From the IMG/VR virus record IMGVR_UViG_3300036770_003860, positions 1 to 37,973 of that record: a stretch of 37,973 bases of DNA. One strand, written 5' to 3'. Position numbers and translations under genes: made by a program. A model generated the notes under the pieces. It was not told where the DNA came from and did no database searches. It saw only the letters and a list, made by a program, of their open reading frames with translations. This stretch comes from a virus. Positions within the stretch are counted from its first letter, which is position 1. The number at the start of each line of letters is the position of its first letter. Positions 9,090 through 23,779 of this stretch are shown in pieces.

Positions 9090-9287
9090 CTAGATGGATG
9101 CCAGTTCGCCGACCTCAACCATGTTTTCGGGCAGGAACGTGTAGCGGATAACGGCGTGTTCAACGCTGTCTTTAACTACTGGCGTTGCGTCTGCCTCGCT
9201 TGCGGTGAAGCAACGCCCATCGGCGTAGTAAAGCCCGGTGAGCTTGTTGCGAAGTTTGATAACTTTGGATGTGGTGTGTGTGGTCAT
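9090..9287 (-). CDS. Small early protein downstream of an iteron array (65 aa)
   Basis: A 65-residue protein beginning MTTHTTSKVIKLRNKLTGLY. The ATG at 9287 is chosen because the longer frame would translate the repeat array at 9303-9350. Its first bases (ATGACCACACACACCACA) resemble those of the plus-strand gene at 21409 (ATGACAACACAACACACC), which also follows a TGTTGGCA array, although the proteins differ afterwards. No ribosome site is visible. It ends 2 bases before the PP-loop gene. Function unknown. Confidence 0.6.
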   Translation of the reverse strand: MTTHTTSKVIKLRNKLTGLYYADGRCFTASEADATPVVKDSVEHAVIRYTFLPENMVEVGELASI

Positions 9288-9302: not shown

Positions 9303-9350
9303 AGTCAGCAGCTGTTGGCAGTCAATGGCAAATGTTGGCATCTGTAGGCA
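9303..9350. repeat. Iteron array A: TGTTGGCA with 10-bp period
   Basis: Five consecutive 10-bp units on plus starting at 9303, 9313, 9323, 9333 and 9343: AGTCAGCA, TGTTGGCA, CAATGGCA, TGTTGGCA, TGTAGGCA. Two are perfect, one has a single mismatch and two are weak (5 of 8). It ends 15 bases upstream of the minus gene starting at 9287. An inverted TGCCAATA at 9293-9300 adjoins it. The 10-bp period is one helical turn and cannot reflect coding. Confidence 0.8.
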
Positions 9351-12546: not shown

Positions 12547-12915
12547 TTATGTGGTTGGTTGTGTTTTTGGTTGGACAGGAAAGCTGGATTCGCGGACGAG
12601 CAGGCAGAAGTCTTCAAAGGCCATCGTGACGAGCCGGCGGCAGTTGTCCTTGCGGTGGACGACTACGGACAATTTGCCGGGACCGCCGTCCGCTTCGGAT
12701 TGGGCGATGGCGGCGTCTAAGTCGAAGCGGGCGCGGCCGTGGCGCTTGCACTCGATGTGAAAATCCGGCAAGCAGGGCACGATCACGTCAGGCGCAGAAA
12801 TTCCCCAAGATCCCTGGCTGACTTGTGCGCCCCGCTTGGCCGGAAATCCTTCGGCGGTCAGAGCTTTGGCGACTTCGCGCTCGAAGCTGGCGCCCTTCTG
12901 GCGGCTGTTGATCAT
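12547..12915 (-). CDS. Hjc-like Holliday junction resolvase/endonuclease
   Basis: A 122-residue protein of the small PD-(D/E)XK type: E12 in GASFEREVAKAL, a Gly/Ser loop, PDVIV with D43, and HIECKR with E55 and K57. This spacing matches archaeal-type Hjc resolvases and related phage nucleases that cut branched DNA before packaging. The start overlaps the helicase stop by ATGA. It lies between helicase and SSB genes, in a compact replication/recombination module. Confidence 0.85.
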   Translation of the reverse strand: MINSRQKGASFEREVAKALTAEGFPAKRGAQVSQGSWGISAPDVIVPCLPDFHIECKRHGRARFDLDAAIAQSEADGGPGKLSVVVHRKDNCRRLVTMAFEDFCLLVRESSFPVQPKTQPTT

Positions 12916-14294
12916 TCGTTCAGCGCCTCCCAAAGTTGTTTATCTGGGGCGTAGACAGAACCATCGCCGTCAGTCAGGCGGCCAACCGGGGTAGTGCCCT
13001 CGAAGCGGGTAAGCGATGGACGCCAGGTGAGATTGAGCGTGCCGGTGCGTCCGGCGCGGTGCTTGGCCACGATCAACTCGGCGTCCTGCGGGTCCGGCTC
13101 TTGGTCCTGCACTGCGTAGTAGCAGGGGCGGTGGACGAGGCACACGATGTCGGCGTCCTGCTCGATGCTGCCAGATTCGCGGAGGTCGCTAAGTTTTGGG
13201 CGGTTGTCGCTGCGGTTTTCCGCCTGCCGGTTGACCTGGGCGGCAGCAACGACTGGCACGCCTAGCTCCATGCTCATGGCCTTCAATCCGCGCGAAACAA
13301 AGCCGACTTCGTTTTCGCGGGACTGGGCGCCGCTGTGCGAGACGAGCTGTAGATAGTCAACGAAGATGCACTTCACGCCCCAGCGCCGGACGGCCAAGCG
13401 GGCGCGGCCGCGGATGTCGAGGAGGGTGAGGCCGCCGCGGTCGTCAACGTAGAGGGGTTCGTTACTGAACTGCGCGGCGGCATCAGAAATTCGGAGCTTG
13501 GTGGCGTGGTCGAGGAATCCGTTGCGGATGATCTCGGTATTGGTATTGGCGCGGCTCAAGACAACGCGCGCGGCCAGCTCGTTGGCGGGCATCTCAAGGC
13601 TGAAGTAAACGACCGGCGCGCCGCGGCGGGCCATGTTGTCCGCCATGTTGAGCATGAGCGCCGACTTACCCATGGCGGGACGCCCGGCCACGATGGTGAG
13701 TTGTCCGCCGCGCAGACCGCCGGTGACCTGGTCAAAGTCCTTGATGCCGGTCTGCAGGCCGAGCTTCTTGCCGCCAGACATCAGTGCTTCCAGCTCGTCC
13801 AAGAGACCTGGGACGATGGCGCTTGGAGCGCGCATGCTGTCGGTGGCGGTGGTGAGGCTAAGACTAAGAACGGCCTCACCGGATTGTTGGAGCACGGCGT
13901 CAGCGTCGGTCGCCATGTCCTGCGCTGAGGCCTGCATGGCGACTGCGGCGTCAATAATGCGGCGGCGGGCGTGGAGGTCGCGCAATGTTTGCGCGTGGTA
14001 CTCAACTGCGGCGGGGCCGCCCGCGGAGTTGCCGAGCATCTCGGTGAGGGCGCCGGCACCGCCGACCGAATTTAGCTTGTGCGCTGCATCGATGCGCTGG
14101 GTCACGGCAATGACGTTGGGCGTGCCGCCGGAGGCGCGAACTTCGGTGATGGTCTCAAAGACCAGCCGGTGCGCGGGCGTGAAGAATAGATCGGCGTGGA
14201 GACCGGAGACCTCGTCAACGAGGTTCGGCTCAGCCATGAGGCTGCCGAGTACGGCGCGCTCGGTGGCGGGCGATTGCGGGACGGTGCGTTTCAT
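12912..14294 (-). CDS. Replicative DNA helicase, DnaB family
   Basis: A 460-residue protein with the DnaB two-domain layout: an N-terminal helical domain (about 1-115, beginning PQSPATERAVLGSLM), a linker and a RecA-like motor. Walker A is GRPAMGKS (204-211), Walker B is IFVDYLQL (310-317), with FSLEM and a later arginine-finger region. Normal length for the family. It would form the hexameric fork helicase, loaded by the initiator at 16195-17043. GGAGG lies 10 bases before the ATG, and a 32-codon membrane peptide gene ends directly upstream. Confidence 0.95.
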   Translation of the reverse strand: MKRTVPQSPATERAVLGSLMAEPNLVDEVSGLHADLFFTPAHRLVFETITEVRASGGTPNVIAVTQRIDAAHKLNSVGGAGALTEMLGNSAGGPAAVEYHAQTLRDLHARRRIIDAAVAMQASAQDMATDADAVLQQSGEAVLSLSLTTATDSMRAPSAIVPGLLDELEALMSGGKKLGLQTGIKDFDQVTGGLRGGQLTIVAGRPAMGKSALMLNMADNMARRGAPVVYFSLEMPANELAARVVLSRANTNTEIIRNGFLDHATKLRISDAAAQFSNEPLYVDDRGGLTLLDIRGRARLAVRRWGVKCIFVDYLQLVSHSGAQSRENEVGFVSRGLKAMSMELGVPVVAAAQVNRQAENRSDNRPKLSDLRESGSIEQDADIVCLVHRPCYYAVQDQEPDPQDAELIVAKHRAGRTGTLNLTWRPSLTRFEGTTPVGRLTDGDGSVYAPDKQLWEALNE

Positions 14295-14393: not shown

Positions 14394-14532
14394 TGCCGGC
14401 TTTCCTCTGCGCGAGGTCCGCGCGGCGACGCTCCCAGCGGTCGCAGGCTGCATCGACTAAGCGAAATGATTCTTCGAGCCATGGTGTGATGTGGTGTTCG
14501 GGCGGTGGCGGTGGTTGGTGCTCAGTAGCCAT
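14320..14532 (-). CDS. Pro/His-rich small protein downstream of array B (70 aa)
   Basis: A 70-residue frame starting MATEHQPPPPPEHHITPWLE, with a poly-Pro stretch, a helical middle (DAACDRWERRRADLAQRK) and a basic Gly-rich tail. The ATG overlaps the end of the GKGDRPRP-type gene by 11 bases and lies about 32 bases downstream of iteron array B. The 3' half overlaps the 32-residue membrane peptide in another frame. No family recognised. Confidence 0.5.
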   Translation of the reverse strand: MATEHQPPPPPEHHITPWLEESFRLVDAACDRWERRRADLAQRKAGNERRVCHNGPAGADRLHGRDAGDR

Positions 14533-14701
14533 GACGTGGGACTTCTTTCTGTCGTGGCGTGGTCTGTTGGCATATGTTGGCAAATGTTGGCACTGAAGGC
14601 AAGGATTTTTTTGGGGTTTTTGACGAAAAAATGCGGTCGTAGTTGGCCCGGTAGCGGTCGCCGTTGACCGGCCGCGGGCGGTCGCCTTTGCCGGCGCTCA
14701 T
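14522..14701 (-). CDS. Conserved phage small protein, GKGDRPRP type (59 aa)
   Basis: A 59-residue protein opening MSAGKGDRPRPVNGDRYRAN, followed by YDRIF. This is a common small tailed-phage protein of unknown role that normally ends soon after YDxIF. Here about 25 further residues are encoded by DNA containing iteron array B, so the extended tail is probably incidental. The ATG overlaps the preceding stop by ATGA. A copy of its first codons (SAGKG) reappears in the fused remnant at 14961-15047. Confidence 0.75.
   Translation of the reverse strand: MSAGKGDRPRPVNGDRYRANYDRIFSSKTPKKSLPSVPTFANICQQTTPRQKEVPRHGY
14565..14601. repeat. Iteron array B: TGTTGGCA with 10-bp period
   Basis: Three perfect TGTTGGCA copies on plus at 14565, 14575 and 14585, then TGAAGGCA at 14594 (9-base step). 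It lies about 32 bases upstream of the minus gene starting at 14532 and inside the 3' end of the GKGDRPRP-type gene. The period is not a multiple of three, so the repetition does not come from protein sequence. Confidence 0.85.
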
Positions 14702-14964
14702 AGATCGTGCGCCTCCCTCTTGACGCCGCATTCCTCCCAGAATTGCTTGCGGTGCCATTCTTCCATTTTCTCCATGCCCTCCATGGCTATCTCATCCTCG
14801 ACGATGCGGGGCAGATCCCAGCTCATCGGCATGTGCTTGACCCGGGCGCGGGCCTCAAGGCGGACGGCCCGCGGAACCCGCTTGATCTTTCCGGGGACAC
14901 ACAGATCAAGCAGGAACCGGCGGGCGGACGCGATGGCGCGGGCTTGCTCGCAGGGCGTGCTCAT
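14698..14964 (-). CDS. Duplicated small phage protein, longer copy (88 aa)
   Basis: An 88-residue protein whose segment ARRFLLDLCVPGKIKRVPRA parallels RRTRQFLADLLHPSTRPKTV of the 69-residue neighbour at 15044-15253, and both continue with RxxxxxxRxxHxPxxxxxP and an acidic end. The two are diverged copies. This one carries about 19 extra residues near its C-terminus (MEGMEKMEEWHRKQ region). The ATG overlaps the remnant ORF stop by ATGA. The family is frequent near phage replication genes. Function unknown. Confidence 0.75.
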   Translation of the reverse strand: MSTPCEQARAIASARRFLLDLCVPGKIKRVPRAVRLEARARVKHMPMSWDLPRIVEDEIAMEGMEKMEEWHRKQFWEECGVKREAHDL

Positions 14965-15047
14965 AGCGGTTGGGACGCCAGCAACAGCGCTGCGTGTTTT
15001 TCGTTGGCGATATCCTCAGCCAGCGCGGCGCCTTTGCCAGCGCTCAC
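14961..15047 (-). pseudogene. Fused remnant ORF left by a tandem duplication (28 codons)
   Basis: A GTG-started frame of 28 codons, VSAGKGAALAEDIANEKHAA followed by LLLASQPL. The first residues match the start of the GKGDRPRP-type protein (MSAGKGD). The rest matches the C-terminus of the 85-residue protein at 15250-15507 (LTNAIADEKHEALLEAAQPL). Its start overlaps the short paralog's stop (GTGA) and its stop overlaps the long paralog's start (ATGA), so the junction still carries ribosomes from one copy to the next. Confidence 0.7.
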
Positions 15048-15253
15048 AACTCGTAGCCCTCCGGTGAAGCAAACTCGTCTTGCGAGAAGATCGGCTTGCC
15101 GGATTCCTCAAGAAACGGGAAGTGGCGCAGGCAGGCGGACGCGCGCCCGCGCAGCCCCTTGACCGTCTTGGGTCGCGTGCTGGGGTGCAGCAGGTCGGCA
15201 AGGAACTGGCGGGTGCGGCGAAGGGACCAATATTGTTCGTAGCGCAGGCTCAT
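15044..15253 (-). CDS. Duplicated small phage protein, short copy (69 aa)
   Basis: A 69-residue protein opening MSLRYEQYWSLRRTRQFLAD and ending with RHFPFLEESGKPIFSQDEF and a short tail. This form is close to what I recall from other phages, so it is probably the ancestral copy of the pair. The ATG overlaps the preceding stop by ATGA. It is predicted to be helical at the N-terminus. Function unknown. Confidence 0.8.
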   Translation of the reverse strand: MSLRYEQYWSLRRTRQFLADLLHPSTRPKTVKGLRGRASACLRHFPFLEESGKPIFSQDEFASPEGYEL

Positions 15254-15507
15254 AGCGGCTGGGCCGCTTCAAGCAAGGCTTCGTGCTTTTCGTCGGCGAT
15301 AGCATTGGTTAGCGCGGCGCAGCGCTCAAGGATGCTGGCGAGCCGCTTGTTGCGCTTAATCAGCTCACGGTTTTCGGCGCGCAGGTCTTTGATCTCAGCG
15401 CTGTGCCGGCGGTCCGCATCGCGCATAAACTCCAGCTCCGCGGAGGCGCCGAAATTGTGCCCAAATCCGACTTCGCCGACGACCAAATCGGGGATCATGG
15501 TGGTCAT
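15250..15507 (-). CDS. Coiled-coil protein (85 aa)
   Basis: An 85-residue protein with a long coiled coil at about residues 25-75 (EFMRDADRRHSAEIKDLRAE and following heptads) and the tail ADEKHEALLEAAQPL. The C-terminal part is duplicated in the remnant ORF at 14961-15047. Both ends overlap neighbours by ATGA. Probably an oligomeric accessory protein. No family recognised. Confidence 0.75.
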   Translation of the reverse strand: MTTMIPDLVVGEVGFGHNFGASAELEFMRDADRRHSAEIKDLRAENRELIKRNKRLASILERCAALTNAIADEKHEALLEAAQPL

Positions 15508-15674: not shown

Positions 15675-16198
15675 GCTGATGTGGACATTTGTACAGTAGG
15701 GCATGGGACATCGGCTGTCTTAGGCCCAGAATTTGTTAGCGATTCCGCGACCTCGTCCAGCAACTCCCAGTTACCGGGTTGCCGGTGTCGATTGGGGTCG
15801 TAGCGGACGCTGACTCGGCTGCGGATGTCGTCGAAGGTCCAAAAGACGAACTGATTGCGGTCGGGCAAATAGGCGGCGAGGACGTCGAAGTCGTGGGCGA
15901 GATACGGGCGGGCGTTGCGGCCGCGCGTGCTGCGCTTGACGGAGATGTGGTAGGCGCCGCGGTCGAGAGTGGCGGTTTTTACCTGCGCGGCAATGGGGCG
16001 GACGCCGTCGCGGGTGAGCAAAACGTCGGCGGTCTGGCCGTGGCCGAAGGGCATGAAGATCTCCCAGTCGTGGACCATGGCGCCGGCGATGAATAGCGTC
16101 TCGGCGATCTCGCCCTTGCGGCAGGCCGACAGCTCAACGGCGCTGCCAGTGATGGGGGCATGGATGCCGTCCGTGATGGCGAAGATTGCCTGCGTCAC
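15671..16198 (-). CDS. PD-(D/E)XK endonuclease-like protein (175 aa)
   Basis: A 175-residue protein with E30 in RKGEIAETLFIAGAM, TADVLL with D58, and IAAQVKTA with Q72 and K74, followed by YHISVKRSTRG. This order matches the small PD-(D/E)XK endonuclease family in which the last acidic residue is replaced by Gln (QVK). Such proteins occur in phages and as intron-type endonucleases. It lies between the initiator and the small-gene cluster, ATGA-coupled on both sides. A branched-DNA or repair nuclease is likely. Confidence 0.75.
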   Translation of the reverse strand: MTQAIFAITDGIHAPITGSAVELSACRKGEIAETLFIAGAMVHDWEIFMPFGHGQTADVLLTRDGVRPIAAQVKTATLDRGAYHISVKRSTRGRNARPYLAHDFDVLAAYLPDRNQFVFWTFDDIRSRVSVRYDPNRHRQPGNWELLDEVAESLTNSGPKTADVPCPTVQMSTSA

Positions 16199-17043
16199 GC
16201 TGCGTTCTCCTTCTCAAATTGTTCCCGCATCTCGGCGAGGCTGCGCTCGAGGGCGGTTTGTTTGGGGCGGCCTTGGGGCGGAAGCTCGACGATCACGGGC
16301 TTGGCGGGGGCATCGATGAAGACGCCGCGCCAGCCGTGCTTGACCGACTTGCGCAGGGCTTCGACGGCGGCGGCTTCGTTGACGGCGGCGAGGTCGGCAA
16401 CGATGCGCTTGGCCGCGGTGGGCGTGAGCGGGGCGCGCAGCTCGCGGCGGTGTTGGGCGAACTCGGCCCAGGCGCGCGCCAGCCCCGGGCCGTGAGGCAG
16501 GGGCAAGGATGCTGGGTCAAATTTGGGAGCGGGAGCTTTCTTTGGCTTGGGTGCCGCTTTTCCCGAAATAGGCAGCGAAGGCGATGAAATCGCCGGAGCG
16601 GGCGCGGCAGCGCTTAGTTCTTTTACTTCGTTGTGTTCTTTCTCTTTATTGTCAGTAGACAAATTGTCAGAGCTGAATGACAAATTGTCAGAACCAAATG
16701 ACAAATTGTCAGAGCTGTTTGACAAATTGTCAGAGCTATCGACTGACAAATTGTCATTCTCAAAGGCAATGCGGTAGCGCCGGCAGAGCATGCGGCCGTT
16801 CTCCACGCGCTTCTCGCCCAAGATGACCAGCCAGCCATTGGCCACCAGCCGGTCCATGCAGCGGTAGATGTTCCGGCGGGTCATGCCGGTGCTGGCCTCA
16901 AGCATCTCCGGCGCGGCCCAGCAGGTGCCGTCCGCCTCGGAGAAGCAGGCCAAGCGCAGCAGGACGAGCTTGTCGCCGTTCTTGGCGGGACAACGCTCCC
17001 AGATCCACTTGAAGATCGGCGTCTTGTCTACGCGCTGCTTCAT
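16195..17043 (-). CDS. Replication initiator, lambda-O-like, with origin inside the gene
   Basis: A 282-residue protein in three parts. Residues about 1-95 form a winged-helix HTH (TCWAAPEMLEASTGMTRRNI, then YRCMDRLVANGWLV). Residues about 97-129 are a Ser/Asp/Asn-rich linker repeating DNLS, encoded by palindromic iterons. The C-terminal part has the replisome-organiser pattern ARAWAEFAQHRRELRAPLT and VKHGWRGVF, then a helical tail. Phage lambda O places its origin in the same way, so this protein should bind the iterons and recruit the helicase at 12912-14294. The ATG at 17043 overlaps the preceding stop by ATGA. Confidence 0.85.
   Translation of the reverse strand: MKQRVDKTPIFKWIWERCPAKNGDKLVLLRLACFSEADGTCWAAPEMLEASTGMTRRNIYRCMDRLVANGWLVILGEKRVENGRMLCRRYRIAFENDNLSVDSSDNLSNSSDNLSFGSDNLSFSSDNLSTDNKEKEHNEVKELSAAAPAPAISSPSLPISGKAAPKPKKAPAPKFDPASLPLPHGPGLARAWAEFAQHRRELRAPLTPTAAKRIVADLAAVNEAAAVEALRKSVKHGWRGVFIDAPAKPVIVELPPQGRPKQTALERSLAEMREQFEKENAA
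16658..16755. repeat. Probable replication origin: five palindromic iterons
   Basis: Five copies of GACAAATTGTC at 16658, 16679, 16700, 16721 and 16745, usually extended to TGACAAATTGTCAGAGC. Each is a 5-bp (often 6-bp) inverted repeat around one A. Spacing is 21, 21, 21 and 24 bases: about two helical turns and multiples of three, so the reading frame is kept. A half-site ATTGTCA (16648-16654) and a T-rich stretch (about 16615-16650) adjoin, resembling the A/T-rich unwinding region beside the iterons of the lambda origin. Confidence 0.85.
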
Positions 17044-17489
17044 TTGCGGCGGATCAGTCGGGATTTCTTGCACTCGTCGGCGGACTCAAAGACCAGCCGC
17101 CCCTCGACATCAGCCATCCCTGACCAGCGGGCCTTGAGGCGGTTGTACGGAGGGTTGACCGGCTGCCAGCTCTTGGCGTCCTTCACAAAGCAGACCACCG
17201 GCTCCGACCATCCGGGCACCTCGACGAAGAGCATGTTCGGGTGGCGGGCGGTCTGGTGGCGGCAGATCACCGCGGAGACCTCGTCGCCGGCGCTGTAGCC
17301 GACTTGGACGGCGGTCTCCACGGCCAGTTCTTTGGCGGTCTTGGGGGTGGCTTTAAGGATGGCTTCGGGCTGGGGTGCCGGGGCTGGTTCTGGGGCAGGC
17401 TTGGCGGGTTCCGCGGGCGGCTCTGGGGCGGGCTGACTGATGGGTTGACTGAAGGTTGACTTGGCGGCGGTTAGGATGGTCTTGATCAT
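17040..17489 (-). CDS. Hypothetical protein with Pro-rich linker (149 aa)
   Basis: A 149-residue protein with a short N-terminal helix, a Pro/Ala/Glu linker (about residues 18-43) and a C-terminal domain rich in beta strands and Trp (MLFVEVPGWSEPVVCFVKDA, then SWQPVNPPYNRL). It is ATGA-coupled to the initiator gene, so it may act in replication initiation. No family recognised and no membrane span. It is first in its operon after a 160-bp gap. Confidence 0.7.
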   Translation of the reverse strand: MIKTILTAAKSTFSQPISQPAPEPPAEPAKPAPEPAPAPQPEAILKATPKTAKELAVETAVQVGYSAGDEVSAVICRHQTARHPNMLFVEVPGWSEPVVCFVKDAKSWQPVNPPYNRLKARWSGMADVEGRLVFESADECKKSRLIRRK

Positions 17490-20673: not shown

Positions 20674-20862
20674 TCAGTTTCCTCCCGTAGTGTTCGCCGC
20701 GATGAACTTGGCGAGCTGGATTGCAGGAACCCGGCGCGTGCGTTGCCCAAAGGCAATCGACGGCAGCCGGCCGTCTAAGACCCACTTGCGGGCCGTGGCG
20801 TAGCTCACGCGGAGGGCGTTGGCCGCATCGCGGATCGTGAGCAGTTGTGGTGTGTCTGTCAT
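20674..20862 (-). CDS. Excisionase/AlpA-like HTH protein (62 aa)
   Basis: A 62-residue winged HTH: LLTIRDAANALRVSYATARK (about residues 7-26) then WVLDGRLPSIAFGQRTRRVP, the layout of the MerR-type HTH_17/excisionase family. Such proteins act as directionality factors for tyrosine integrases or as activators. It is the first minus gene, divergent from the plus block, with iteron array C 8 bases upstream of the ATG at 20862. The lytic early operon therefore starts here and is probably repressed at array C in lysogens. Confidence 0.85.
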   Translation of the reverse strand: MTDTPQLLTIRDAANALRVSYATARKWVLDGRLPSIAFGQRTRRVPAIQLAKFIAANTTGGN

Positions 20863-20869
20863 AAAAATC

Positions 20870-20907
20870 TGCAGTAATCTGTGGGCATCTGTTGGCAAAT
20901 GGGACAA
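20870..20907. repeat. Iteron array C in the divergent control region
   Basis: On plus, TGTGGGCA at 20880 and TGTTGGCA at 20890 are strong; TGCAGTAA at 20870 and TGGGACAA at 20900 are weak in-phase units. The period is 10 bases. It lies immediately upstream of the excisionase-like gene on minus, where a bound protein would block initiation. Confidence 0.7.
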
Positions 20908-20937: not shown

Positions 20938-20965
20938 TGCCAACACGTGCAAACAGATGCAAGCA
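20938..20965. repeat. Iteron array D, inverted, in the divergent control region
   Basis: On plus, TGCCAACA (20938), TGCAAACA (20948) and TGCAAGCA (20958), that is TGTTGGCA, TGTTTGCA and TGCTTGCA on minus, again with a 10-base period. It faces array C head to head, about 40 bases apart, between the two divergent genes. Confidence 0.75.
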
Positions 20966-20994: not shown

Positions 20995-21032
20995 AGTTGA
21001 CAATTGTTGGCATCCGTTGGAGCGTGTTGGCG
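20995..21032. repeat. Iteron array E abutting the plus regulator gene
   Basis: On plus, AGTTGACA (20995), TGTTGGCA (21005), CGTTGGAG (21015) and TGTTGGCG (21025), 10-base period. A weaker in-phase unit lies at 20985. The last unit ends 2 bases before the ATG of the ribbon-helix-helix-like gene, so no ribosome site exists there and binding would act directly on that gene: probable autoregulation. Confidence 0.75.
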
Positions 21033-21034
21033 TT

Positions 21035-21295
21035 ATGAGTACCACAAAGAAACCGAAGCGACTTGTCGGCTCGCGCAAGGCAGTCTTCGCCAACGTCAGC
21101 AGCGACTCTCACGCCCGCATTCAGCGCCGCGCGGAAGCCGCACACCTTAGCGCCGCCAAGTATGCCGGCCTGGCCATCGACTTCCTGATGGAGGTCGAGG
21201 ACGCCTTCGGCGGCCCAGTGCCGGATTGGTTCAAGGTGTCGGTCGTCCGAATGGCGCACGACTACAACGAAAAGATGCGTTTGGCGCGGCAGTAA
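21035..21295 (+). CDS. Ribbon-helix-helix-like DNA-binding protein, candidate lysogeny regulator
   Basis: An 86-residue protein with a basic N-terminus (KKPKRLVGSRK), a short strand AVFANVS (about 16-22), then two helices: DSHARIQRRAEAAHL and AAKYAGLAIDFLMEVEDAF. This is the strand-helix-helix layout of Arc/CopG/Omega-type repressors, which bind as dimers and cooperatively coat tandem short repeats. A C-terminal helix with WFKVSVVRMAHDY follows. It is the first gene of the plus block, directly downstream of array E and flanked by arrays D and F. A regulator binding those arrays is inferred. The family call is by eye. Confidence 0.7.
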   Translation: MSTTKKPKRLVGSRKAVFANVSSDSHARIQRRAEAAHLSAAKYAGLAIDFLMEVEDAFGGPVPDWFKVSVVRMAHDYNEKMRLARQ

Positions 21296-21345: not shown

Positions 21346-21393
21346 TGCTTGCAGATGCCTACAGATGCTATAGCGTGCTGACAGATGCCAACA
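21346..21393. repeat. Iteron array F, five units, upstream of the second plus gene
   Basis: On plus at 21346, 21356, 21366, 21376 and 21386: TGCTTGCA, TGCCTACA, TGCTATAG, TGCTGACA, TGCCAACA. Read on minus these are variants of TGTTGGCA, the last perfect. Linkers are mostly GA. The third unit contains TGCTATAG, which looks like an extended -10, so the array may overlap the promoter of the gene at 21409. Confidence 0.8.
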
Positions 21394-21408: not shown

Positions 21409-21693
21409 ATGACAACACAACACACCACAACGGGCGCGGAGGCTTCTGCCGCGCAGCTCCTCCGCACCATTTACACCGATAGCGACGGCCACAACCGGCA
21501 GTTCATCTACTCGCTGTATGCTGACGGGTCGGCCATGAGCCGCGAAATTACTCGTCATTGCAGCGACCCCGCGCGGCGCACGCAATGCACTTACCGCGAG
21601 CGTCACGACGCTGGCTCCGAAATGGCCGTTCTGATCAATCGCCTCGCGTCGCAGCCTTCGCTCCCCGCTGGCTGGTATGAGGACAACGCCTAA
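21409..21693 (+). CDS. Hypothetical protein downstream of array F (94 aa)
   Basis: A 94-residue protein beginning MTTQHTTTGAEASAAQLLRT with a beta/alpha pattern (RQFIYSLYADGSAMSREI) and several Arg/Cys residues. The ATG at 21409 is chosen because the longer frame reads through array F. Its first bases resemble those of the minus gene at 9287, also under a TGTTGGCA array. It ends 1 base before the next gene. Function unknown. Part of the lysogeny block. Confidence 0.65.
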   Translation: MTTQHTTTGAEASAAQLLRTIYTDSDGHNRQFIYSLYADGSAMSREITRHCSDPARRTQCTYRERHDAGSEMAVLINRLASQPSLPAGWYEDNA

Positions 21694-22249: not shown

Positions 22250-22470
22250 TCAAGCACGACTACTTGCTCACCGGCACGTTCCCTTGGGACGGCATCCGCA
22301 TTGCCGGCCGGCGCTTTGACTCGCCGGAGCTGTTCGCCATGATGCGCCGGCAGTGCGTCTGCGCAGACCAAGTGCGGCATGTCTGCGCGGACCTTGATGT
22401 GCTGCCGTTCGCCGAGGAGGTTGCGGCGATTGAGCGGGACATTTGCCGCAGGGAGGCGGCTTACTGCTGA
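22246..22470 (+). CDS. Hypothetical protein closing the lysogeny block (74 aa)
   Basis: A 74-residue protein beginning MIKHDYLLTGTFPWDGIRIA with CVCADQVRHVC, three clustered Cys and a His, and an acidic helix. ATGA-coupled to the PEGA gene. Its last 10 bases overlap the 3' end of the integrase gene, which converges from the other strand. Function unknown. Confidence 0.7.
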   Translation: MIKHDYLLTGTFPWDGIRIAGRRFDSPELFAMMRRQCVCADQVRHVCADLDVLPFAEEVAAIERDICRREAAYC

Positions 22471-23561
22471 TTCCACACCGCCGCGATATCCACTTCGCGG
22501 TCGTACACGGCATACCAGGTCGAGGTCGTGGTCGGTGAACTGTGGCCAAGCATGTGCTGCGCTACGCTGATCTTGCCGGTCGCGTTAAGGATGTCCGAGC
22601 CGGCCTGCCGCCGCAGCTCGTAGGCTGCCGTCCGCCGATCCGGCAGAAACTCCCGGACGAACGCATTGAAGATCCGCTCCATAAAAAACTTCCGGCGCCC
22701 GGGCGTGGCGCCCTCCACCATGTAATCCTCCGCGGTCAGCAGCTCCGCGGCCATCCATTCGGGAATGGACATGGCGCGGCCCCGCTTGCTGCCGGTCTTC
22801 AGCGTCACGCCATCGCGCTCGATCACCACCATGACGAACTTGCCATTGCGCTCCTCAATCCACTCGCGCCGGCAAAGCCAGCACTCCTTCGGCGTCATCC
22901 CGAGGTAGCGCGTCAGCAGGAACGCCCGGCGGATCGACGGCGATCTCTGCTTGCTGGCCTCGTCCATCCTACCAAGGATCTCCGGCGAGATTCGCTCAAA
23001 GGTAGGCGAGGGCGCCCGCATGCCCTTGGTCGTCTTGGCGAACTTCTCCAGCGACTCCGGCAGCGGGAAGCCTTCCCAGTCAAGCGCGTGGCAGAACACG
23101 GCCCGGGCCGACACCAGCACGCCGCGCAGCGTGTAGACACTGCCCTTCCACTCCGCGAGATACTTGGCCACCAGCGCCGGCGTCAGCACGCTCAGCGGCT
23201 TCTCCCGCACCTGCTCGTTGGTGCCGCCGAGCGTGGCCCGCAGCAGCCGCAACAGACGATTGACATTGCTCTGCTTGCTGCCGATCTTGCTGACCTTCAA
23301 ATAATGGTCAATCGCCTCACCAACCGACTTGCACGTCGCCCGCTGCTGGTGCGCCTGCAGCGCCGCCAGACCCTCGCGCCCGGCATCGACCAGGATGCCC
23401 TTGGCCTTCTCCTTGGCCATGACCAAGTCGCGCAGGCCGGTCGAAATGCGCAGCCGCTTCTTGGTATGCGGGTGTCGGAACTCAAGCTGCCACCGCGGCG
23501 AGTCGTTGGTCTGGTAGAGTTTTCCGGTCAGCCCGGCCGCGGCGATCTTGTGCGTGTCCAT
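22461..23561 (-). CDS. int: Tyrosine integrase with atypical active site
   Basis: A 366-residue tyrosine recombinase. Numbered from the ATG at 23561: arm-binding and core-binding regions (about 1-190), then the catalytic domain. AYELRRQAGSD holds the second Arg (R317) with Tyr-Glu where HxxR is usual, LGHSS holds H340, and WYAVYD holds the probable nucleophile Y350. The first catalytic Arg, normally in LGxRxxE, is Thr (LGMTPKE, T223). The frame extends to a TTG at 23609 but that part contains an arm-type repeat, so the ATG is preferred. It inserts and excises the phage at attP beside it. Confidence 0.85.
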   Translation of the reverse strand: MDTHKIAAAGLTGKLYQTNDSPRWQLEFRHPHTKKRLRISTGLRDLVMAKEKAKGILVDAGREGLAALQAHQQRATCKSVGEAIDHYLKVSKIGSKQSNVNRLLRLLRATLGGTNEQVREKPLSVLTPALVAKYLAEWKGSVYTLRGVLVSARAVFCHALDWEGFPLPESLEKFAKTTKGMRAPSPTFERISPEILGRMDEASKQRSPSIRRAFLLTRYLGMTPKECWLCRREWIEERNGKFVMVVIERDGVTLKTGSKRGRAMSIPEWMAAELLTAEDYMVEGATPGRRKFFMERIFNAFVREFLPDRRTAAYELRRQAGSDILNATGKISVAQHMLGHSSPTTTSTWYAVYDREVDIAAVWNQQ

Positions 23562-23709: not shown

Positions 23710-23748
23710 GGCTAGGTAGCTCAGTTGGCAGAGCAGAGGACTGAAAAT
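23710..23748 (+). other. attP: attP core: 5' half of a tRNA-Phe gene
   Basis: The 39 bases match the first half of a bacterial tRNA-Phe: 7-base acceptor strand GGCTAGG, TA, D-stem GCTC/GAGC with loop AGTTGGCA, anticodon stem GAGGA and loop CTGAAAA with anticodon GAA (23743-23745). After one more base the match stops: the 3' stem half reads TGCCC instead of TCCTC, and no T-arm or acceptor 3' strand follows. It lies beside int and between arm repeats, so it is the site of crossover with a host tRNA-Phe gene, probably in the anticodon loop region. Confidence 0.8.
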
Positions 23749-23779
23749 GCCCCGCCTTACTGCGTCCGATTGCCACTCT

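Follow-up and report, generated by a model that had tools for sequence, protein, structure and literature searches.

A small predicted ribbon-helix-helix protein is the likely reader of six dispersed 10-bp repeat arrays in a probably temperate phage

Short tandem repeats stand at several gene starts in this phage, and they raise the question of which protein reads them and what that reading would control. The window analyzed here is the whole phage record (37,973 bases). The initial annotation proposed that an 86-residue protein encoded among the repeats is a ribbon-helix-helix (RHH) protein that owns them and operates a lysogeny switch not based on a CI-type repressor. The genes and sites that frame the question are as follows.

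12912–14294, minus strand: dnaB
14532–14320, minus strand: ORF upstream of dnaB, preceded by array B
20674–20862, minus strand: HTH_17 (excisionase/AlpA-like) gene, first of the leftward operon (Pfam E = 7.8e-10)
21035–21295, plus strand: RHH-like regulator P0001, 86 aa, with no prior annotation
22461–23561, minus strand: tyrosine integrase (weak Pfam match)
23712–23755, plus strand: 5′ part of a tRNA-like sequence (tRNA-Phe-like by eye), located upstream of the integrase; probable attP core

The presence of the integrase supports a temperate phage. The tRNA-Phe-like 5′ half lies at a constant distance from the integrase in relatives that share this integrase type, and its sequence makes it a probable attP core.

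The repeat unit is TGTTGGCA, which recurs at exact 10-bp spacing at six loci in the window (arrays A to F) with the consensus TGTTGGCAWC. A scan based on scores for chained units found exactly these six loci, compared with an expected mean of 0.025 (maximum 1) from 200 first-order Markov sequences.

9313–9350, plus strand: array A, units at 9313, 9323 (weak), 9333 and 9343
14565–14592, plus strand: array B, three perfect units, upstream of the ORF at 14532–14320 and of dnaB
20880–20897, plus strand: array C, with two good units, immediately upstream of the start codon of HTH_17 at 20862
20938–20965, minus strand: array D, three units, overlapping the putative leftward early promoter of the HTH_17 gene and its operon
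20995–21032, plus strand: array E, units at 20995, 21005, 21015 (degenerate) and 21025, overlapping the putative promoter of the RHH gene
21346–21393, minus strand: array F, units at 21386–21393, 21376–21383, 21356–21363 and 21346–21353

The arrays are spread over 12 kb and are located at gene starts. Array E ends 2 bases short of the P0001 ATG at 21035 (plus strand), as the initial annotation stated. The distances between start codon and array are ~26 bases for 9287 (minus), ~33 for 14532 (minus) and ~16 for 21409 (plus). The corresponding distance is ~18 bases for 20862 (minus). Array A precedes a cargo-like ORF (9090–9287, minus strand) and array F precedes a variable gene (21409–21693, plus strand); neither has a homologue among the 36 genomes compared, and other genes stand behind array F in the relatives. 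Repeats of other kinds are also present in the window. Five GACAAATTGTC palindromes are spaced ~21 bp apart at 16658–16756 inside the gene for an HTH_36 replication-type protein (16195–17073), an arrangement that resembles an origin located inside an initiator gene. Palindromic repeats with similar spacing and other sequences occur in L028, L133, L023, L056 and L104 and constitute a second swapped site set. An 88-nt direct repeat (74% identical) at 14944–15031 and 15233–15320 overlaps small ORFs.

A direct search of viral contigs with P0001 returned no relatives. Relatives were gathered by searching viral contigs with dnaB, the integrase and HTH_17, and then with the RHH alignment. The RHH gene is carried by ~58 related viral contigs as homologous ORFs at the same place, which establishes the 86-residue plus-strand gene as real. 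Genome contigs yielded no RHH relative, placing the family so far in viral contigs only, and the dnaB search among genome contigs gave a single 34% match in a Puniceicoccales MAG. Two further candidates, L142 and L206, were discarded as spurious or unrelated matches. Relatives with readable flanks have the divergent order HTH gene, arrays, RHH gene, array, and the arrays at the positions of the RHH gene itself and of the early genes are conserved.

P0001 itself has no match in Pfam or PHROG. A diverged group of its orthologues matches the Pfam HicB family (PF05534), an RHH family, with 23.4 bits against a cut-off of 21; the match exceeds the cut-off in the orthologues of two genomes and is also seen by six-frame search. 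The FitA-like RHH family (PF22513) gave weak matches in 3 of 20 family members, and the best match of the family profile to PDB sequences was the RHH protein ORF56, aligned in register with E ~0.7 (0.68). The predicted layout consists of a ribbon at approximately residues 15–21, helices at residues 23–35 and 42–58, and an extra C-terminal helix at residues 64–85. AlphaFold monomers calculated with 12 and with 20 sequences (pLDDT 64–68, pTM 0.34) contain helices 23–35, 42–58 and 64–85 and no strand, and Foldseek found no RHH match to these low-confidence models. The RHH ribbon forms only in the dimer, so the monomer models neither support nor refute the fold. The strand-helix-helix layout originally described is backed in part, by the HicB and FitA-like matches of the orthologues and by the helices of the low-confidence model; Pfam is blind to it in P0001, and the models contain no strand. 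Because its orthologues match RHH families, P0001 is predicted with high confidence to be an RHH protein.

The RHH proteins of the family group by their ribbon region into VFAN/VYAN (the window), VHAN, VTVSL, ATVTL and IYLNL forms, and the sequences of the local arrays (C to F) in the relatives match the RHH class. Classes 1 and 2 differ in the local flanking bases near the RHH gene and have a class-1-like B array in common, which leaves the TNGGCA core as the one informative part at that site. Class 6 consists of one contig, and an array-first search using the motif of class 6 recovered L133 alone within the family; the other five contigs from this search are unrelated. ATGGACA repeats at 10-bp spacing are present in three unrelated viral contigs (L211:3560–3586, L212:10452–10478 and L207:6553–6579), and no RHH relative was found in the fetched stretches of these contigs. 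In the gap that separates the tRNA-like attP fragment from the start of the integrase, an extra class-matched array is present at L054:1651, L186:12164 and L167:11146, and also in L143, L144, L171, L182 and L198. No clear extra array was seen between the integrase and the attP-like fragment of the window.

Array B is a distal member of the set. In the 36 genomes that have both dnaB and the RHH gene, the region upstream of dnaB was searched motif-blind for the three-unit 10-bp array with the highest self-similarity. An array was found in 36/36 genomes at about the same place, ~260–310 nt upstream of dnaB and 5–6.5 kb from the RHH gene. Its motif is the one expected for the RHH class in 32/36 genomes (TNGGCA in 19/22, TGTCCM in 4/4, TGYGGAC in 8/9 and TATGGAC in 1/1), and the motif of another class was found in 0/36; the four genomes without the class motif at B fall below the threshold of two exact units. 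The association between the RHH protein and the array given DnaB and HTH is r = 0.57 (partial Mantel, P = 0.0002), and the association between the HTH protein and the array given DnaB and RHH is r = −0.07 (P = 0.89). Compared to the window, L133 has 92% identity in HTH_17, 82% in dnaB and 28% in the RHH protein. Its arrays at B and F are both TATGGACA, and at B it has TATGGACATT-TATGGACAAA-CATGGACACA at the exact position of TGTTGGCATA-TGTTGGCAAA-TGTTGGCACT in the window. A scan of neighboring genes showed that ORFs 15250 and 15504 covary with array B about as well. Both are within ~1 kb of B, so linkage explains their covariation, and neither resembles a DNA-binding protein. The proposal that P0001 owns the arrays is strongly backed by an array B that tracks the RHH class, takes no off-class motif and does not track HTH_17. 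Because in dozens of related phages the arrays, even B, change sequence when the protein changes, P0001 very likely binds all six of them.

The positions of the arrays suggest how binding would act. Upstream of the RHH gene, a putative −35 element (TTGACA, 20997–21002) and a weak −10 element (GAGCGT, 21020–21025) separated by N17 were read by eye. This TTGACA falls within the opening unit of array E and is conserved across the classes, and the weak hexamer 17 bases past it has the form NANNNT. Array F embeds a putative promoter (TTGCAG 21349–21354, N16, TAGCGT 21371–21376) for the gene at 21409. The leftward promoter region lies under array D, with array C between that region and the HTH_17 start. 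The initial annotation had assigned control of the early operon to array C, which does adjoin the HTH_17 start but is downstream of the promoter region that D overlaps. A strict sigma-70 scan around the arrays returned no promoter and the proposed −10 boxes are weak, so all of these promoter positions are putative. A protein bound to these arrays would cover polymerase sites.

P0001 would thus be a DNA-binding regulator with the arrays as its operators. One RHH dimer would occupy each 10-bp unit, an arrangement that would align neighboring dimers on one face of the helix and allow them to bind cooperatively. Binding at D and E would shut off the leftward early operon (HTH_17 and the replication genes) together with the promoter of P0001 itself, binding at B would shut off the dnaB segment, and binding at A and F would shut off the variable cargo genes. 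A drop in the repressor level would switch on the early genes. Dimer binding, cooperativity, repression and lysogeny are what we infer for the RHH protein, and its assignment as a regulator that represses early, replication and cargo promoters and itself through the arrays is probable from the sequence comparisons.

The remaining question is which decision such a regulator would serve. HTH_3 and Peptidase_S24 domains are absent from all six frames of the window in searches with positive controls, in keeping with the original claim that there is no CI-type repressor, and a search of 12 relatives for HTH_3 returned none over the cut-off. The absence of such a repressor from the window makes lysogeny control the most likely role for the RHH protein, and the balance of the evidence leans toward it being the lysogeny (immunity) regulator of a CI-less temperate phage. 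A role as an early-to-late repressor also fits the anatomy. It is unlikely, although a serious competitor, that the RHH protein binds the arrays for a Cro-like shut-off of early genes in lytic growth while lysogeny is set otherwise. An operator belonging to the RHH gene itself is present, and arrays A and F also guard variable cargo genes, a type of gene often expressed by lysogens. The lack of an HTH_3 or S24 repressor in the window argues against the Cro-like role, as does the position of the RHH gene, which runs against the leftward early operon and is near the integrase and attP.

If the RHH protein is the immunity regulator, the at least four clearly separated operator specificities in the family are predicted heteroimmune groups. 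A more extended reading, which we hold tentatively at somewhat short of even chances, is a temperate family in which an RHH genome-wide immunity regulator replaces CI, a few ribbon residues set the specificity by a code, and all operators of a genome, the distant ones too, are rewritten in concert at a class switch. The residue-to-base assignments in this reading come from the class alignment of the RHH proteins. In the code, the residues at window positions 18/20 would specify TNGGCA when they are F/Y,N, TGTCCM when H,N, TGYGGAC when T,S and TATGGAC when T,T.

Other candidates for the array reader fare worse than P0001. P2 Cox and lambda Xis bind short repeated sites, and the HTH_17 protein could bind the arrays in the same manner. 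The product of 20674–20862 has the HTH_17 domain, its gene adjoins arrays C and D, and in a sub-clade with local CCTTGGCATT units the HTH_17 recognition-helix region differs too. This assignment is improbable because array sequence does not vary with HTH_17 in the partial Mantel analysis (r = −0.07). Every readable array is changed in L133 even though its HTH_17 is 92% identical, and phages with an unrelated HTH gene and a class-1/2 RHH protein (L037, L045, L054, L056, L061 and L151) retain TNGGCA arrays. A host factor that reads the arrays, with classes that differ because hosts differ, is a very improbable explanation. Host identity could track class, but the RHH-array association survives correction for DnaB divergence; DnaB identity to the window is 82% in L133 and ~70% in L106 and L126, yet L106 and L126 keep TNGGCA. 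Equally improbable is a partition system with a ParR/ParG-type RHH centromere-binding protein and the arrays as a parC-like centromere: D and E resemble the ParR/parC layout of 10-bp repeats with parC split around a promoter (PMC5016525), but the ParA-type ATPase domain AAA_31 is absent from the genome in searches with working positive controls, the arrays stand at gene starts across 12 kb, and an integrase and attP are present. No ParM/StbA partner ATPase was seen in a search that had no working positive control.

P0001 as the array-binding regulator has parallels in known systems. The closest in function appears to be SSV1 F55, a small RHH protein that maintains lysogeny and whose tandem-repeat binding sites are located at its own promoter and at several early ones (PMC9608457, PMC5569661); the likeness drawn here is one of function. 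As in the F55 system, tandem repeats are located at the regulator's own gene (E) and at D/C, B, F and A, although the promoters here are putative. F55 is a 55-residue protein of an archaeal virus that recognizes an 11-nt site and is reported to be unique to SSV1, whereas P0001 has a C-terminal extension and belongs to a bacterial-type phage family in which the units are 10 bp long and natural specificity classes are many. The ParR/parC classes appear to be the closest parallel for swapped specificity. ParR, itself an RHH protein, occupies tandem repeats of 10 bp, each iteron taking one dimer, and parC can be divided into two parts that flank a promoter (PMC5016525); each ParR family recognizes no parC class but its own (PMC9426499). 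Unlike ParR/parC, a partner ATPase is not seen here and the arrays are dispersed at gene starts instead of forming one centromere. The closest sequence families of the diverged orthologues are the HicB-type (PF05534) and FitA-like (PF22513) RHH antitoxins; in contrast to these, no toxin gene was recognized beside P0001, and P0001 is below both cut-offs. Omega (pSM19035), MetJ, CopG, P22 Arc and Mnt are RHH repressors, several of which act on short repeated operators, and this group uses 7- or 8-bp units or single operators. Arc and Mnt act alongside an HTH repressor and not in place of one. In the mycobacteriophage stoperator systems, one repressor serves many operators dispersed in the genome; it is an HTH repressor acting on single sites, unlike the RHH-like protein and 10-bp arrays found here.

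These results name a previously unannotated regulator in a widespread environmental phage family, and the operator predictions are testable at once. The matched RHH and operator classes offer natural material for working out how an RHH protein reads DNA and how a repressor and its scattered operators could change specificity in step. This bacterial-type phage family joins the few viruses (SSV1) in which an RHH protein, and not a CI-like one, appears to hold lysogeny. Should the more extended reading above hold, the family would also offer a naturally occurring set of heteroimmune groups and an RHH recognition code that can be read.
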